A stretch of DNA of 64,000 bases, taken from NCBI RefSeq assembly GCF_004123295.1, contig NZ_SDMK01000001.1, positions 1,116,001 to 1,180,000 of the forward strand, read 5' to 3'. This DNA comes from Silvibacterium dinghuense (lineage in GTDB: Bacteria; Acidobacteriota; Terriglobia; Terriglobales; Acidobacteriaceae). The position numbers and the translations under genes were made by a program. The notes beneath the pieces are model-generated. The model was not told the DNA's origin. It worked only from the letters and a program-made list of their open reading frames with translations, and made no database searches. How positions within the stretch are numbered: position 1 is the stretch's first letter; each line of letters begins with the position of its first letter. This document shows, one piece after another, positions 23,602 to 31,848 of the stretch.

Positions 23602-25734
23602 ATGCCTGTCCTCCCACTGTCGCGCCGCGTCACCCTGGCACTGCTTCTGTCCACGTTTCCCGGGCTTCCCGGGCTTTCGGGCTTTGCCCAATCCGGCAAC
23701 CTGGACCGTTTCGCGGGCGAATACAGCGAGAAGTCCGAGCCCGATGTGGTCTATTCCGTGTTTGCCGCGGGGGATCACCTGACCATTGAAACCGCGCGCT
23801 CGACCGCCATGGTGCTCACTCCGGCCGGAGGCAATGATTTCACGACCGAAGGCAGCAAGCTGCGCTATGAGTTCACCAGCGCCGACGGCGGCAAGGCGAC
23901 CGCCCTTCACTGGACACGCAGCGTTCGCGGCGTTCCCACTCCGACCGAGGCAGCTCGCGTCAGCGACACTCCGGAACACAATCACTTCCGTCCGTATAGC
24001 CGGCAGGAGGTGATGATCCCCATGCGCGACGGGATCAAGCTACATGCGATCATCCTACGCCCCACAGACACGCATGAGCCACTGCCCTTCATGATGCAGC
24101 GCACGCCCTATGGCGTCGACGGCTATGTGCCCGATCGCATCAACGCGCAGTTCACCGAGCTGGCACAGAGCGGCTATATCTTCGTGATGGAGGACATTCG
24201 CGGCCGGTACGAGTCGCAGGGCCAGTTCGTGATGATGCGTCCCATCGCGGCACACCATGATCCCCACTCCTCCGATACAAAGAACACGGACGAGAGCACC
24301 GACACCTACGACACCGTGGCGTGGCTCATCAAGAATGTTCCCGAGAACAATGGTCGCGTAGGCGTTGCGGGTGTCTCCTATCCCGGGTTTCTTGCTGCCG
24401 AGGCAGGTATCGATCCGCACCCCGCGGTGAAGGCCATCTCTCCGCAGGCGCCGATGACGGACGTGTGGGTTGGCGACGACTTCTTTCACAACGGTGCATT
24501 TCGTCAGACATACGGTTACGATTACGTGCTCGGTATGGAGTCGAGCAAGGAAGCGACCTTCCAGCCGCTTAAAGAAGATGCCTACGACTTCTTTCTGAAG
24601 GCCGGCTCCTTCGCGGCGGCGGGCAAATCGAATGTTGACGACCTGCCTACGGGAAAGGCGTTTCTTGCGCATCCCGGTTATGACGACTTCTGGCAGTCGC
24701 GTGCCGTGCAACCGCACCTCGATCGCGTCACCGTGCCCACGCTCGAAGTGGGCGGCTGGTGGGACCAGGAAGATATGTGGGGGCCGCAGGCGGAATACGC
24801 CGCGCTCAAACCGCATGACGCGCAGCACGAGGTGTACATCGCGCTTGGGCCCTGGAATCACGGTCAATGGACGCTCACCACGCGGCATCTTGGCGCAGTC
24901 GACTTCGGCTCCGCGACCGGCGACTGGTTCCGGCAGCACATCGAGGCGCCATTCTTTGCGCATTATCTTAAGGACCAGCCGGGCTTCGATGCGGAGAGCG
25001 CGATCAGCTTCCAGACAGGATCGAATACGTGGAAGCAATACCCGGTGTGGCCGCCGAAACAGGGGATCGTGGAGCGCAATCTTTATCTCGGCACCGATCA
25101 CGCGCTCAGCTTCGACAGGCCTGCGGCCGCAGAGGCTTTCACGGCATACACGTCCGATCCTGCTTCGCCTGTGAACTATCGCAAGCGGCCGATTGAGGCA
25201 ACCTATTCCCCGACCGGATCGCACTGGTATTACTGGCTGGTCGAGAATCAGAAGCCGTATGAGACGCGCAGCGATGTGGCCACGTGGAAGACTCCGGTCC
25301 TCGATCACGACGTGACCATCACCGGCGATGTGCTGGCCGATATCCTCGCCTCAACCTCGGGCACAGACTCCGACTGGGTGGTGAAGCTCATCGACGAGAA
25401 CCCGGACGATGCCAGCCTGGGCAACATGGCGGGCTATCAGCTGATGGTGGTCGATGAGATCTTCCGCGGCCGCTATCGCGAGAGCTACGAGCATCCGCAG
25501 GCGATCCCGGCAGGCAAGCCGGAGGAGTACAAGTTCAGCCTGCACGGCGCGGACCATGTTTTCAAGCAGGGCCATCGCATCGTGGTGCAGGTGCAGAGCA
25601 GCTGGTTCCCGCTCTACGACCGCAATCCGCAGACCTTCGTGCCCAACATCATGAAGGCGAAGCCCTCCGACTACAAGGCTGCCGAACAGCACATCTATGC
25701 GAGTTCGCATATCGTGCTGCCGGTAGCGGAATAA
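23602..25734 (+). CDS. CocE/NonD family hydrolase, alpha-amino-acid ester hydrolase-like
   Basis: A 710-residue exported serine hydrolase. A signal peptide (RRVTLALLLSTFPGLPGLSG-FAQ) and an extra N-terminal ~110-residue beta domain precede the alpha/beta-hydrolase core (YSRQEVMIPMRDGIKLHAIILRP, MQRTPYG, VMEDIRGRYESQGQF). The nucleophile is S259 in GVAGVSYPGF. A C-terminal jelly-roll typical of X-Pro dipeptidyl-peptidase C domains follows (DVLADILASTSGTDSDWVVKLID ... HRIVVQVQSSWFPLYDRNP). It resembles the alpha-amino-acid ester hydrolase branch more than cocaine esterases. The natural substrate is probably an acyl ester or a peptide. It is divergent from GH51 and may share its operator. Confidence 0.88.
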   Translation: MPVLPLSRRVTLALLLSTFPGLPGLSGFAQSGNLDRFAGEYSEKSEPDVVYSVFAAGDHLTIETARSTAMVLTPAGGNDFTTEGSKLRYEFTSADGGKATALHWTRSVRGVPTPTEAARVSDTPEHNHFRPYSRQEVMIPMRDGIKLHAIILRPTDTHEPLPFMMQRTPYGVDGYVPDRINAQFTELAQSGYIFVMEDIRGRYESQGQFVMMRPIAAHHDPHSSDTKNTDESTDTYDTVAWLIKNVPENNGRVGVAGVSYPGFLAAEAGIDPHPAVKAISPQAPMTDVWVGDDFFHNGAFRQTYGYDYVLGMESSKEATFQPLKEDAYDFFLKAGSFAAAGKSNVDDLPTGKAFLAHPGYDDFWQSRAVQPHLDRVTVPTLEVGGWWDQEDMWGPQAEYAALKPHDAQHEVYIALGPWNHGQWTLTTRHLGAVDFGSATGDWFRQHIEAPFFAHYLKDQPGFDAESAISFQTGSNTWKQYPVWPPKQGIVERNLYLGTDHALSFDRPAAAEAFTAYTSDPASPVNYRKRPIEATYSPTGSHWYYWLVENQKPYETRSDVATWKTPVLDHDVTITGDVLADILASTSGTDSDWVVKLIDENPDDASLGNMAGYQLMVVDEIFRGRYRESYEHPQAIPAGKPEEYKFSLHGADHVFKQGHRIVVQVQSSWFPLYDRNPQTFVPNIMKAKPSDYKAAEQHIYASSHIVLPVAE

Positions 25735-27149: not shown

Positions 27150-27602
27150 ATGAAGCCGTTCGCACGCCCTGCCGCCTTCGCCCTCGTTGCCTCCTTTGCC
27201 CTCGTTGCCGCGGCGCAATCACCCATGCCCAAAGCGGCCTTCACCGCGAAGACCATCGCCATTCTCAACGACACCAAGACCGGCGAGGTCACGGACGGAG
27301 CTCTCGAACAGCTAAAACGCTGGGGACATTTCACCGTGATCGATGATCCGGAAAGCGCCGATATCGTCCTGCGCTTCGATCACAAGACCGAGCGCGACGG
27401 CCGCAATACGCAGAAGACCGATGCCAACGGTAATCCCACCGATTACGGCTACACCATGAGCTTCTCGTCGGAGGTCCACATGCGCGCGTATCTCAAGGGC
27501 TCGGAGACACCCTTCTATACGACGAAGAGCAGCGACGGGAAGAAGAAAGGCGGACAGTCCTGCGTGAGCAGCTTTGAAGACGCCTGGCTGGCCGAGCGTT
27601 AG
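27150..27602 (+). CDS. secreted protein of unknown function, 150 residues
   Basis: A signal peptide (MKPFARPAAFALVASFALVAAA-QS) is followed by a ~125-residue domain: AFTAKTIAILNDTKTGEVTDGALEQLKRWGHFTVIDDPESADIVLRFD, then a polar loop and SSEVHMRAYLKGSETPFYTTKSS. The alternation of beta strands and helices and the 'SADIVLRF' strand resemble periplasmic lipoprotein-like domains that sense or bind envelope components, but I cannot name the family. It overlaps the stop of the convergent bestrophin gene by 4 bp. Confidence 0.7.
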   Translation: MKPFARPAAFALVASFALVAAAQSPMPKAAFTAKTIAILNDTKTGEVTDGALEQLKRWGHFTVIDDPESADIVLRFDHKTERDGRNTQKTDANGNPTDYGYTMSFSSEVHMRAYLKGSETPFYTTKSSDGKKKGGQSCVSSFEDAWLAER

Positions 27603-28489
27603 CGTGTGCCTGTCATCTCCGAGACGGCCTGTTCGATATTTTCGCTGAGCTGTTCCAGCGGCAGGTCGTTGAAGGCTGTACCGAAGGGGTCTTCGAGCTC
27701 GCTGGCCAGCGTCTCGAGCGCGATAAAGGTATAGGCCACAAAGGTCGCGATCACCGGCGTCAGCAGGCCGACCGAGTCCAGCAGGCCGAAAGGCAGCAGC
27801 AGGCAGTAGATGTAGACCGTGCGATGGATGATGACCGAATATCCGTACGGGATCGGCGTGTTCGCCAGCCGCTCGCAGCCACCGATGATGTTCGCCAGCT
27901 CATCGAGATTGCGATCGAAGGCCGTCAGCACTATTTCTCCGAAACGCCCTTCCCGCTGGCGCTCGACGACCCACTCGGCCATCAACGCGGTCAGCTCCAT
28001 GGGCCGAAAATGTGCAGCCCGCACCCGCGCACACACCGCCGCAGGCAGCAACCGCTGCAGCTCGCTCATGGCATCGGTCTTGCGCAGCTGGTGCTCGAGC
28101 GCATGGGGACAGGACGCCAGCAACGCCGTCCATTGCTGCAGGCGCTCATCGTCCGCCGGCAGACCGGTGAGTGTCCGGCCCTGCCGCGCCAGCGCACGCA
28201 GGCTGTTTAACAGCGAACCCCACAGCTTGCGGCCCTCCCAAAAGCGATCGTAGCTGGCACTATTCCGAAACCCGAGGAAGATGGAAATGGCCACGCCGGT
28301 CAGCGTGAACGGCGCGACATTGAGCGGAATATGGAAGCGCCCGATGCGACCACCGGAATACACGGCCGCGCTCGAGAGCAGAAACATCAGCCCCAGCCGC
28401 GGCAGGATCTGCCTGAGCACCGAACCCCGCCACTCAAAAAGCATCAGGAACCAGTGCTGTTTCTTTTGCCGTTTCATCGGTTTATCCAT
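27599..28489 (-). CDS. bestrophin-family membrane protein (YneE/UPF0187-like)
   Basis: A 296-residue inner-membrane protein of the prokaryotic bestrophin-like chloride/cation channel family. Signature stretches are IPLNVAPFTLTGVAISIFLGFRNSASYDRFWEGRKLWGSLLNSLRAL, IPYGYSVIIHRTVYIYCLLLPFGL and FVAYTFIALETLASELEDPFGTAFNDLPLEQL. The last acidic segment corresponds to the calcium-clasp region of animal bestrophins, though bacterial homologues conduct monovalent cations. Start uncertain: ATG 28489 or ATG 28477; neither has a strong ribosome site. Confidence 0.88.
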   Translation of the reverse strand: MDKPMKRQKKQHWFLMLFEWRGSVLRQILPRLGLMFLLSSAAVYSGGRIGRFHIPLNVAPFTLTGVAISIFLGFRNSASYDRFWEGRKLWGSLLNSLRALARQGRTLTGLPADDERLQQWTALLASCPHALEHQLRKTDAMSELQRLLPAAVCARVRAAHFRPMELTALMAEWVVERQREGRFGEIVLTAFDRNLDELANIIGGCERLANTPIPYGYSVIIHRTVYIYCLLLPFGLLDSVGLLTPVIATFVAYTFIALETLASELEDPFGTAFNDLPLEQLSENIEQAVSEMTGTR

Positions 28490-28521
28490 TCTATCGAGGC
28501 AGCTGGGACTATATGGTCCTT

Positions 28522-28679
28522 GCCCGCTCACTGCGGGCCGGGTATCCTTATTTCATGCGGATTTTCACTATCCCGGCTCCCTGTCCTGCATGTTGTCTCA
28601 TGCTGAGCCGGAGTCGCGTGTAGTTTCACTGCATCCATACACGCTCCGCCCGGCCCACCCTCACACGGTGGGTTTTTCT
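28522..28679 (+). promoter_or_regulatory. structured leader with terminator upstream of sulfite reductase
   Basis: The ~160 bp upstream of the sulfite reductase gene can fold into successive hairpins. They are GCCCGC / GCGGGC (28522-28538); CCGGCTC / GAGCCGG (28573-28579 with 28605-28611) enclosing GCATG / CATGC (28588-28603); GCGTGTA / TACACGC (28616-28622 with 28638-28644); and an intrinsic terminator CCCACC / GGTGGG with TTTTTCT (28654-28679). CCGGG (28538-28542) can alternatively pair with CCCGG (28572-28576). The layout is that of an attenuator or riboswitch. It matches no class I can name, including SAM-I, cobalamin and T-box. Confidence 0.6.
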
Positions 28680-28701
28680 ATTTCAGATCAAAGAAGACGA
28701 G

Positions 28702-30408
28702 ATGACGCTGACCACAACGACCCCGCAGGCCGCCCCCAAAGAGACCAAAGCCCAGCGCATGGAGCGCCTTAAGCGCGAGAAGAATCCCTGGGAGATCTTC
28801 GACGAAGTCCGCGCCTTCGCCCGCGAGGGCCGCGCCAGCGTGGTCCCCGAGTGGGCCAACGCCTATTTCAAGTGGTGGGGCATTTACACGCAGGGCGATG
28901 GCGCCGGTGTCACAGGCGGCAAAGGCGGCGAGGGTCTGGCCACCGACTACTTCATGATGCGCATCGGCCTGCCCAACGGCCTGCTCACCTCGCACCAGCT
29001 CCGCATTATCGGCAACCTTACCAAGAAGTACGCCCGCAACCTCGCCGATATCACCACGCGGCAGAATATCCAGCTTCACTGGCTCACCATCGAAGACATC
29101 CCGGAAGTCGTCGACATCCTCGACAGGATCGGCCTCTCGCCCAAGGGCGCCTGCGGCGACGTGGTCCGCAATGTGACCGGCTGCCCGCTCGCCGGCATTG
29201 ACCACGAAGAGCTCATCGACGCCTCCGGCCTGGCGGTGGAGCTCGCGCAGACGCTGGTTGCCAATCCCGTGTTCTACAACCTGCCGCGCAAGTTCAAGAT
29301 GTCCGCCTCCGGCTGCCCGGTCTGGTGCAACTATCCGGAGATCAACGACGTTGCCTTCACGGCCATCAAGAACGCAGCCGGCGAAGTCGGCTATACCGTC
29401 CGCGTCGGCGGCGGCCTCTCGAATGAGCCGCATCTTGCCGTGAAGCTCGATGCCTTCATCCGCCCGGATCAGGCGGTGGTCGTGGCGACCGCGATCACCG
29501 CGATCTTCCGCGACCAGGAAGTGCTGCGCGAGAGCCGTGACCGCGCCCGCATCAAGTACCTCTTCATGCGCGAAAAGTGGACCGCCGAAACGATGCTCGA
29601 GGAAATAGAGCGCCGTCTCGGTTACAAATTCGAGGCCGCTCCGCAGGAAACCCTGCCGCAGGATGTGCTGCGCGATCACGTGGGCGTCCACCGGCAGAAG
29701 CAGCCCGGGCTCAGCTATGTCGGCGCCTCGGTGCTGCGCGGCCGCCTCACCGGCGACCAGCTTGTGGCGGCCGCCGATCTTGCCGAGCGCTTCGGCGACG
29801 GCCAGCTGCGCGCCACGATCATGCAGAACCTGATCTTCGTGAATATCCGCACGGCGGAGACCGCGGAACTGGTACAGGAGCTGGGCAAGATCGGCCTGCA
29901 TGTGGACGGCACGAACTTCTGGCGCGGCGCCATTGCCTGCACCGGCACCGAGTTCTGCAAGCTGGCCATCAGCGAGACCAAGGGCTTCACGCGCTGGCTG
30001 GTCGAGGAGCTCGAGGAGCGCCTGCCCGGCTTCGATCAGCAGATCAAGCTGCACGTGACCGGCTGCCCCAACAGCTGCGGCCAGCACTGGATTGCCGATA
30101 TCGGATTGGAAGGCAAGAAGATCAAGCATGAGGGCAAGCTGGTCGATGCCTTCTATTTCTGCGTTGGCGGAGCGGTCGGCGCGCATGCCGCGATTGCACG
30201 GCCGGTCGGCTATCGCGTGCCTGCGACCGAGGTTCCGGAGGCGCTTACCCGCCTGCTTTCGTCGTACCTCGACGAGCGCAACGAAGGCGAGAACCTGCGC
30301 AGCTACTTCTCGCGCCACGATGCCGATGCCATTCGCGCACGGCTGGCCGGTGAAGTTCTCGCACCCGTTGTTCGCGACGCCGCAACCCGTCCCGGCTTCG
30401 GCGACTGA
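28702..30408 (+). CDS. nitrite/sulfite reductase, ferredoxin-type (assimilatory sulfite reductase)
   Basis: A 568-residue cytosolic siroheme and 4Fe-4S enzyme. It has the paired ferredoxin-like and catalytic half-domains of the NirA/Sir family (TRQNIQLHWLTIEDIPEVVDIL, MQNLIFVNIRTAETAELVQEL). The four cluster cysteines are C413 and C419 in ACTGTEFCKLA and C455 and C459 in TGCPNSCGQHW. The adjacent siroheme-synthesis genes support it. Sulfite rather than nitrite is favoured because the transporter context and the absence of nitrate genes point to sulfur assimilation, but sequence alone does not settle this. Its transcription is probably controlled by the structured leader. Confidence 0.9.
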   Translation: MTLTTTTPQAAPKETKAQRMERLKREKNPWEIFDEVRAFAREGRASVVPEWANAYFKWWGIYTQGDGAGVTGGKGGEGLATDYFMMRIGLPNGLLTSHQLRIIGNLTKKYARNLADITTRQNIQLHWLTIEDIPEVVDILDRIGLSPKGACGDVVRNVTGCPLAGIDHEELIDASGLAVELAQTLVANPVFYNLPRKFKMSASGCPVWCNYPEINDVAFTAIKNAAGEVGYTVRVGGGLSNEPHLAVKLDAFIRPDQAVVVATAITAIFRDQEVLRESRDRARIKYLFMREKWTAETMLEEIERRLGYKFEAAPQETLPQDVLRDHVGVHRQKQPGLSYVGASVLRGRLTGDQLVAAADLAERFGDGQLRATIMQNLIFVNIRTAETAELVQELGKIGLHVDGTNFWRGAIACTGTEFCKLAISETKGFTRWLVEELEERLPGFDQQIKLHVTGCPNSCGQHWIADIGLEGKKIKHEGKLVDAFYFCVGGAVGAHAAIARPVGYRVPATEVPEALTRLLSSYLDERNEGENLRSYFSRHDADAIRARLAGEVLAPVVRDAATRPGFGD

Positions 30409-30415
30409 GCCTGCC

Positions 30416-31045
30416 ATGAGCCTGCTGCCAGTTTTTCTTAAGCTCGACCGCCGCCCGTGCCTGATCATTGGCGCGGGCTCGGTCGCGCTGCAGAAGATTC
30501 CGGCCCTGCTCAATGCCGAAGCGGAAGTCCGCGTCATCGCGCCGCGTGTCCATCCGGAGATTGCCGCGCTGGCTGCTGCCGGCCGCATCACGCTCCAAGA
30601 ACGCGGCTATCGTCCTGACGACCTTGATGGCCTCTTTCTTGTCATCGCGGCCACCAACGATTCCGCTGTCAACACCGCGATTTACGAAGAGGCGCTGCGC
30701 CGCAACCTGCTCTGCAACGCGGTGGACGACCCGCCGAACTGCGACTTTTATTTCGGCTCGATCGTGACGCGCGGCGATCTCCAGATCGCCATCTCGACCG
30801 CGGGCGAGAGCCCGGCCTTTGCGCAAAAGCTGCGCAAGGAAATCGATGCGCAGCTTCCGGAAGATCTTGGTCCATGGCTGCACACTATCGGCGAGCAGCG
30901 GGGTGAAATCCTCGAAGCGTATGAACCCGGCGAGGATCGCAAGCTGCTGCTGCACCAGCTTGCGCAACGCCCCACCTGCGAAGCAGCCGCCTGCCCCGCG
31001 CAGAAGCTCGCGCTGCGTGCCAGGCATGCCGGAGCCTCGCGATGA
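30416..31045 (+). CDS. precorrin-2 dehydrogenase / sirohydrochlorin ferrochelatase (SirC/Met8-like)
   Basis: A 209-residue enzyme that oxidises precorrin-2 with NAD and may insert iron to give siroheme, the cofactor of the upstream reductase. The N-terminal Rossmann motif is PCLIIGAGSVALQKIPALL, followed by RGYRPDDLDGLFLVIAATND and CNAVDDPPNCDFYFGSIVTRGDLQIAISTAGESPAFA, all characteristic of the CysG N-terminal/Met8p family. The start at 30416 gives the usual length; the frame is open further upstream without a start signal. It begins 7 bp after the reductase stop and overlaps the next gene by 4 bp (ATGA). Confidence 0.9.
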   Translation: MSLLPVFLKLDRRPCLIIGAGSVALQKIPALLNAEAEVRVIAPRVHPEIAALAAAGRITLQERGYRPDDLDGLFLVIAATNDSAVNTAIYEEALRRNLLCNAVDDPPNCDFYFGSIVTRGDLQIAISTAGESPAFAQKLRKEIDAQLPEDLGPWLHTIGEQRGEILEAYEPGEDRKLLLHQLAQRPTCEAAACPAQKLALRARHAGASR

Positions 31046-31848
31046 AGACCGGCGCCGTCTACCTCATCGGTGCGGGCCCGGGCGATCCCGATCTCCTGAC
31101 TGTGAAAGCTGCGCGCCTGCTTGCTTCGGCGGAGATCGTTCTTCACGACGACCTTGTGCCGGAAGCGATTCTGTCGCTCGCCGGGCCACGCGCGCTTCGC
31201 GTGAGCGTGGGCAAACGCTGCGGCACCAAGAAGATCACGCAGGCCGAGATCAACCAGCTCATCGTAGAGAAAGCGCGGCAGGGCCTCACCGTTGTACGCC
31301 TCAAGAGCGGCGATCCGCTGGTCTTCGGCCGCGCCGCCGAAGAGATGGACGCACTTCGCACCGCAGGCATTGCTTTCGAGATCGTGCCCGGCATCACCGC
31401 TGCGTTTGCCGCGGCCTCTGCGCTCCAGTGCTCGCTTACCGATCGCCGAGCAGCTTCGGGGATTGTCTTCCGCTCCGGTCATCATGCTCCGGACGCCACG
31501 GCGGACCACATCTGCGACCCAGCCGCAGCCACACGCATCGTCTACATGCCAGGCCGCGACTTCACGGCCATCGCCAGCGAGTGGCGCGCGGAAGGCCTGC
31601 CGCCGGAGTTTCCCTGCATAGCCATCTCCCACGCCGCACGGCCCGATCAGCAGATCACCGTCACCACGCTCGCTGCACTGGCCACGACCGAACCCGGCCC
31701 GGCCCCCGTACTCCTGCTGGCAGGGTGGGTCTTCGAGACGATCCGCAGCGATGCACCCGGATTGCAACCACTCGTGCGGAGCGCCCTGGCCGAACTCGAA
31801 GTGGCACACCAGACCGGCTTATTGCCAGTCGAAAGCCCCGCGAAATAG
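31042..31848 (+). CDS. cobA: uroporphyrinogen-III C-methyltransferase
   Basis: A 268-residue SAM-dependent methyltransferase making precorrin-2 from uroporphyrinogen III. Family blocks are VYLIGAGPGDPDLLTVKAARLL, VRLKSGDPLVFGRAAEEMDAL, EIVPGITAAFAAASALQCSLTDR and a C-terminal VLLLAGWVFETI. With the preceding dehydrogenase it reconstitutes the three CysG activities as two proteins. It is translationally coupled (ATGA overlap) and overlaps the convergent yraN-like gene by 30 bp. Confidence 0.94.
   Translation: MKTGAVYLIGAGPGDPDLLTVKAARLLASAEIVLHDDLVPEAILSLAGPRALRVSVGKRCGTKKITQAEINQLIVEKARQGLTVVRLKSGDPLVFGRAAEEMDALRTAGIAFEIVPGITAAFAAASALQCSLTDRRAASGIVFRSGHHAPDATADHICDPAAATRIVYMPGRDFTAIASEWRAEGLPPEFPCIAISHAARPDQQITVTTLAALATTEPGPAPVLLLAGWVFETIRSDAPGLQPLVRSALAELEVAHQTGLLPVESPAK

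Follow-up and report, generated by a model that had tools for sequence, protein, structure and literature searches.

A putative cysteine-responsive attenuator ahead of the sulfite reductase operon of Silvibacterium dinghuense and its relatives

Upstream of a reductase gene in Silvibacterium dinghuense lies a leader with several potential hairpins (positions 28522–28701 of the window, the 64,000-nucleotide stretch of DNA analyzed here), which raises the question of what signal, if any, this leader transmits to the genes that follow. The initial annotation had proposed a new class of regulatory RNA, responding to cysteine, sulfide, SAM or siroheme. The analysis reported here retains a cis-acting, terminator-based leader with cysteine as the likely signal, and abandons the new ligand-binding class: the leader is very probably a cysteine-responsive attenuator of transcription, mediated by the ribosome.

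The leader and the genes that follow it

The first gene (28702–30408, + strand) encodes a NirA-type siroheme nitrite/sulfite reductase, with Pfam NIR_SIR domains over their cut-offs and best NCBIfam matches under their curated cut-offs. It is likely an assimilatory sulfite reductase, and the Cys codons of the leader described below support this assignment over that of a nitrite reductase. The next two genes on the same strand are a siroheme synthase N-terminal (CysG-N) type gene (30404–31045, start approximate) and a uroporphyrinogen-III C-methyltransferase (31042–31848), in agreement with the initial placing of the leader at the head of a sulfite-reduction and siroheme operon. The same genome encodes a second, distant nitrite/sulfite reductase homologue, of 34% identity (C1:275835–277241, − strand). 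The divergent neighbour of the leader (27602–28480, − strand), whose 5′ end lies near the leader promoter, encodes a bestrophin-type protein (Pfam Bestrophin_2, E 1.3e-99), and an X-Pro dipeptidyl-peptidase family S15 protein is encoded at 23602–25734 (+ strand).

The predicted minimum free energy of the region 28515–28701 is −65.2 kcal/mol (z −3.28), and none of 200 dinucleotide shuffles was equally stable. The hairpins and the intrinsic terminator reported earlier do exist as sequence, the terminator both by pattern and by folding. The leader had also been said to match no recognised class, and an Rfam search bears this out, with no match at gathering score in the window; the best sub-threshold match in 28400–28800 was anti-hemB, at 18 bits for a cut-off of 49.5 (E 0.077).

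Overlooked until now was a short ORF at 28555–28623 (+ strand), which passes through the nested stem. Its 22 codons encode MRIFTIPAPCPACCLMLSRSRV, followed by a stop codon at 28621–28623, and include three TGT Cys codons (28582–28584, 28591–28593 and 28594–28596, encoding the Cys residues of CPACC), the minimum allowed by the Cys-cluster threshold given below. Ahead of this ORF, a −35-like hexamer TTGCCC (28520–28525, + strand, 4/6 matches to consensus) is separated by 17 nt from a −10-like hexamer TATCCT (28543–28548, + strand), with 6 nt between the latter and the ATG. With 8/12 matches to consensus in all, this promoter falls below the 9/12 threshold of the window promoter scan; the own-genus leader L002 carries an identical TTGCCC-17-TATCCT, and L003–L006 carry TTGACC-17-TATNCT. 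Because of this promoter-like spacing, transcription is predicted to start at about position 28555, at or next to the ATG, and the leader peptide therefore appears leaderless. A longer ORF, beginning MVLARSLRAGYPYFMRIF from an in-frame ATG at 28513, was rejected, with a promoter score of 3/12 compared to 8 for the ATG at 28555.

This predicted start also bears on the stems, at least four, claimed for the leader. The nested stem, a stem pairing 28616–28622 with 28638–28644 and the terminator are all recovered, but the first hairpin (∼28522–28540) probably sits in promoter DNA, outside the RNA. The switch suggested between CCGGG and CCCGG cannot work as written because the CCGGG at 28539–28543, beside the −10 hexamer and upstream of the predicted transcription start, is probably not in the RNA. 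An alternative CCGG pairing, of 28607–28611 with 28650–28654, is possible in the fold.

Three elements of the window leader, all on the + strand, are relevant to attenuation. In the fold, the Cys codons are enclosed by the nested stem (labeled 1:2), which pairs 28573–28579 with 28605–28611. The intrinsic terminator (3:4), identified by pattern and folding, consists of GCCCACC-loop-GGTGGGT and a T-run (28653–28677, with the hairpin at 28653–28673), and the ORF ends 29 nt ahead of it. Between these, the folds provide a candidate antiterminator (2:3, 28607–28654), combining GCCGG 28607–28611/CCGGC 28650–28654 and GCGTGTA 28616–28622/TACACGC 28638–28644, which cannot coexist with stem 1:2 and costs the terminator two pairs at its foot. 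When the sequence is folded with a cut before the terminator 3′ arm, 28604–28605 can pair with 28656–28657, while that arm is unmade.

Recurrence of the leader design in relatives

Within the class, 132 of 399 genomes gave a match to the reductase gene at E ≤ 1e-100; the loci fetched from this search were its complete places, all but eleven of them. The leader set consists of 136 stretches (30 loci, with L029 and L030 as distant paralogues, 26 more, and 80 fetched stretches), and 133 of these were counted, as L026, L122 and L123 have too little upstream sequence. A leader was considered positive if, within 300 nt, it has an ATG ORF of 6–50 codons in which three or more Cys fall in a seven-residue span. 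This is the case for 106 of the 133 reductase leaders, compared to 2/133 on the minus strand, 4/131 in the region 350–650 nt upstream, and a mean of 3.45/133 in shuffled sequences (2.4/133 in a second run). With GTG starts also allowed, 114/133 are positive (minus strand 4, shuffles 5.5, far upstream 4/131). Clustering at 70% identity gives 57 clusters, with a positive leader in 42 (ATG) or 44 (ATG/GTG), and in a second, named-contig set that overlaps the first, 62/78 leaders have a Cys-cluster ORF with an ATG start within 320 nt. The carriers in this second set include Terracidiphilus gabretensis, Edaphobacter modestus, E. lichenicola and Granulicella rosea.

The remaining 19 of the 133 leaders have no Cys-cluster ORF starting with ATG or GTG. 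These include the paralogues L029 and L030, as well as L028, which is negative only as its match began inside the gene, its "upstream" being gene interior. They also include L095, L097, L099, L101 and L104, all of one genus, where the reductase is kept without the Cys-cluster uORF that their congeners L082, L102, L103 and L111 possess; either a loss or another form of control would explain this. On the positive side, L080 has neither promoter nor terminator at its Cys-cluster ORF, and is probably a chance occurrence. No Cys-cluster ORF was found for the Methylomirabilota and Rokubacteria homologues L199, L210 and L214. Two contigs labeled Opitutia (L144) and Verrucomicrobia (L174) encode an acidobacterium-like reductase (71 and 68% identity), L144 with a Cys-cluster ORF and L174 with just a two-Cys ORF; these are perhaps misassigned bins. 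Scanning the genome of S. dinghuense itself for Cys-run leaders was uninformative, as TGYTGYTGY gave 1098 matches, for 509 with the reversed pattern.

The spacing between promoter and start codon was studied for 107 Cys-ORF starts, obtained with a 350 nt search. A TTGACA/TATAAT-like pair with 16–18 nt spacing, at least 8/12 matches and located 5–9 nt ahead of the ATG is present at 72/107 uORF starts, compared to 2/817 other ATGs in the same regions, bearing in mind that the ATG with the best promoter was chosen among in-frame ones, which favours the leaderless reading somewhat. The other 35/107 uORF starts have no promoter of 8/12 or better at this spacing. A Shine-Dalgarno-like tetramer is found for 2/107 uORFs, in contrast to 52/96 main genes, whose starts were approximated by the in-frame ATG lying furthest upstream within 90 nt. 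For six of the nine own-genus leaders (L001–L006), a single start codon is indicated by the best promoter, 6–7 nt from the −10 hexamer; it is ATG in L001 and L006 and GTG in L002–L005, and this suggests leaderless GTG initiation in the latter four. Among the other own-genus leaders, the spacing is kept in L008 and L010, though with weaker hexamers, and amounts to 13 nt in L009. Several other clades have 9–14 nt between −10 and start, and a leader of a few nucleotides is therefore likely there. Judged by sequence only, the leaders fit a leaderless start.

A terminator, defined as a hairpin at least as stable as −9.5 kcal/mol and followed by a T-run, comes after 105 of the 107 Cys-cluster ORFs. 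In 97 of these 105 it is positioned 21–45 nt past the stop codon, and the median distance is 30 nt. The corresponding controls gave 3–12/107 in five shuffles, 6/105 far upstream and 11/107 on the minus strand.

The same design is found upstream of a PAPS-reductase-family gene in the same genome (C1:2165302), which its length and a second family member downstream suggest to be of the cysD type. Its leader consists of TTGACA-17-GACCCT, 7 nt, and an ATG that opens the reading frame MRFAPAATVFVMHACCCACCPRTAVCSVNA, whose stop codon is followed after 34 nt by a terminator (−18.4 kcal/mol). Among nine same-genus loci of the cysD-type gene, L225 alone is without a Cys-cluster ORF. Of the eight positive leaders, six have a strong terminator, while L224 has none and that of L226 is weak. 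For the PAPS-reductase family more widely, a Cys-cluster ORF is present within 500 nt at 13/30 loci of a first set and at 11/29 loci of a new one, with 3/30 and 0/29 respectively for the minus-strand control. The new set derives from 297 genomes of the phylum, 128 of which gave a match, and the counts cover 29 fetched loci. Its 11 positives include L267, L268, L272 and L274, from one family outside the class, in which six to seven of seven residues are Cys and all four ORFs are followed by a terminator. L267 and L268, the two that were scored for it, show no clear promoter at leaderless spacing. The pattern is not always so clear: among 14 of the loci checked, L271 is without terminator and L273 has a weak one. 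Other cysteine genes gave little: a Cys-cluster ORF was found at 1/17 usable cysK loci, 422 nt upstream in that instance, and at 0/6 cysE loci.

Antiterminator pairing and the proposed mechanism

Attenuation by a ribosome would require that the terminator 5′ arm has an alternative partner upstream. Pairing was modeled for a transcript cut at the terminator loop, with the ribosome either stalled at the first Cys codon or placed at the stop codon. The mean probability of upstream pairing for the terminator 5′ arm is 0.62 in the stalled state, compared to 0.24 at the stop and 0.48 when the free stretch is shuffled. Pairing is higher in the stalled state than at the stop in 102/105 leaders, a difference that is partly trivial as more RNA is free, and it exceeds the shuffled mean in 85/105 leaders and in 33/40 clusters (p 2.4e-6). 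The duplex between free stretch and terminator arm has a mean z of −0.94, with 31/105 leaders reaching p 0.05 and 2 at p 0.9 or above. Over the set as a whole, complementarity is therefore above chance. In the clearest antiterminators, the ORF contains, towards its 3′ end, TCTGGCGNGGGG, which mimics the terminator 3′ arm and pairs with CCCACCGCCAGA. Antiterminator sequences differ in other clades, and the alignments show stems varying from clade to clade.

For the window leader the same model gives 0.53 stalled, 0.22 at the stop and 0.29 shuffled. In the duplex test, its energy shows no gain over shuffles (z 0.42), and in the full-length fold its antiterminator removes just two of the seven terminator pairs. 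Covariation was evaluated in three clades (16/22, 24/28 and 11/13 sequences, the remaining rows having been dropped by eye), on hand-drawn antiterminators that were each taken from one clade member. Antiterminator cells are paired at 81.7, 91.7 and 82.8% in the three clades, compared to 16–58% in slid versions, but no covariation measure went significantly beyond shuffles in any of them; for the measure that came closest, the number of pairs with both sides changed among the 24 sequences, 77/500 shuffles did as well. Since within-clade covariation is not significant, an antiterminator in the leader set is probable, not proven.

I propose the following sequence of events. RNA polymerase would start at or next to the ATG of the 22-codon leader peptide, and a ribosome would load on this 5′-terminal start codon without a Shine-Dalgarno site. 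With ample Cys-tRNA, the ribosome would reach the stop codon and cover the 5′ strand of the antiterminator, so that the terminator hairpin would form and transcription would end ahead of the reductase gene. With scarce Cys-tRNA, it would stall on the CPACC codons and block stem 1:2, leaving 28605–28622 free for 28638–28654; this would weaken the terminator, and the sulfite reductase and siroheme operon would be transcribed. Sequence comparison directly shows the ORF, its Cys cluster, the promoter spacing, the missing Shine-Dalgarno site, the terminator and, over the set, the complementarity; the transcription start, translation, stalling, antitermination and cysteine response are inferred. The cysteine leader peptide can be proposed with high confidence and termination of transcription with good confidence, whereas for the antiterminator in its exact form confidence is moderate.

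The stable fold, the presence of a terminator and the location ahead of a sulfur operon would also suit a riboswitch whose ligand is cysteine, sulfide, SAM or siroheme and whose expression platform is the terminator. Such a riboswitch is nonetheless very improbable here, since clades have the Cys-coding frame, the promoter and the terminator in common while their stem sequences differ, no Rfam family matches, and part of the fold proposed for it lies upstream of the predicted transcription start. A T-box was set aside as the main reading together with the riboswitch, as the alignments show no aptamer-like conservation between clades. The pattern that recurs across relatives, a promoter, at fixed spacing a short ORF with clustered Cys codons, and then a terminator, is the signature of ribosome-mediated attenuation, where the signal sensed would be charged tRNA-Cys and not an aptamer ligand. 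That the terminator is constitutive, or the 3′ end of an unrelated small transcript, with the short ORF present by chance, can be given practically no weight: one short ORF with three Cys codons would be unremarkable on its own, but its occurrence in 106/133 relatives, for 2.4–3.5 in shuffles, already contradicts this explanation.

The cysteine leader peptide could also act by translational or Rho-dependent attenuation, as in mycobacteria, the hairpin being incidental. The weakness of the window leader's own antiterminator would fit, and such a mode is reported or proposed for mycobacterial polycysteine leaderless sORFs. A strong hairpin and T-run after 105/107 uORFs, at a median of 30 nt past the stop, argues against it, and I regard this variant as unlikely. 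Transcription attenuation by the terminator is the preferred reading.

Comparison with known attenuators

Both ribosome-mediated attenuation as a kind of control and cysteine as its signal are already known. Polycysteine-encoding leaderless short ORFs of mycobacteria were reportedly described by Canestrari et al. in 2020. Other studies describe Cys-rich mycobacterial uORFs proposed as attenuators (PMC4633059, 2015), Cys leader peptides predicted in Actinobacteria, with no conserved terminator at the mycobacterial ones (PMC1262725, 2005), and M. smegmatis cases termed translation attenuation (PMC13236596, 2026). The acidobacterial leaders share with the mycobacterial sORFs a uORF that, here, appears leaderless, a run of Cys codons, association with sulfur/cysteine operons and cysteine as the likely signal, and differ from them by the intrinsic terminator found after nearly all of the uORFs, and by belonging to another phylum.

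Another parallel is the uORFC-8-2 motif of Rhodobacterales, a predicted Cys-codon attenuator with a terminator before cysS (PMC8632094, 2021). In this motif, tandem Cys codons lie inside the first stem and are followed by an intrinsic terminator, as in the acidobacterial leaders, and attenuation of transcription by the ribosome is likewise predicted. However, uORFC-8-2 is a consensus-structure motif that concerns the cysteinyl-tRNA synthetase of alphaproteobacteria, whereas the leaders described here precede sulfite/sulfate reduction genes, have no Shine-Dalgarno site and possess clade-specific stems. The open-licence literature yielded no description of a leaderless start combined with a polycysteine peptide and an intrinsic terminator, or of the spread of this combination in Acidobacteriota, and no relevant account of Cys leader peptides or of leaderless attenuators in acidobacteria.

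It is reasonably likely that in the window's class, and perhaps in the wider phylum, assimilatory sulfite/sulfate reduction is placed under a distinct, leaderless and Shine-Dalgarno-free polycysteine attenuator with a terminator. If so, these genes could respond to cysteine without a regulator protein or riboswitch dedicated to the task, and a role and a signal would be assigned, with two or more genes as targets in each genome, in cultured species. It would also add a case of an apparently leaderless ORF driving intrinsic termination, where ribosomes loading on a 5′-terminal AUG or GTG would have to synchronise transcription and translation.

The trp, his and leu attenuators of enterobacteria combine control codons, three mutually exclusive stems and a terminator before the first gene; each leader peptide there has a 5′ untranslated stretch ahead of it, and a Shine-Dalgarno site. 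The acidobacterial leaders resemble them in their control codons, in the mutually exclusive stems of the proposed model and in the terminator before the first gene; in contrast, their start codon appears to lie at or near the 5′ end of the transcript.
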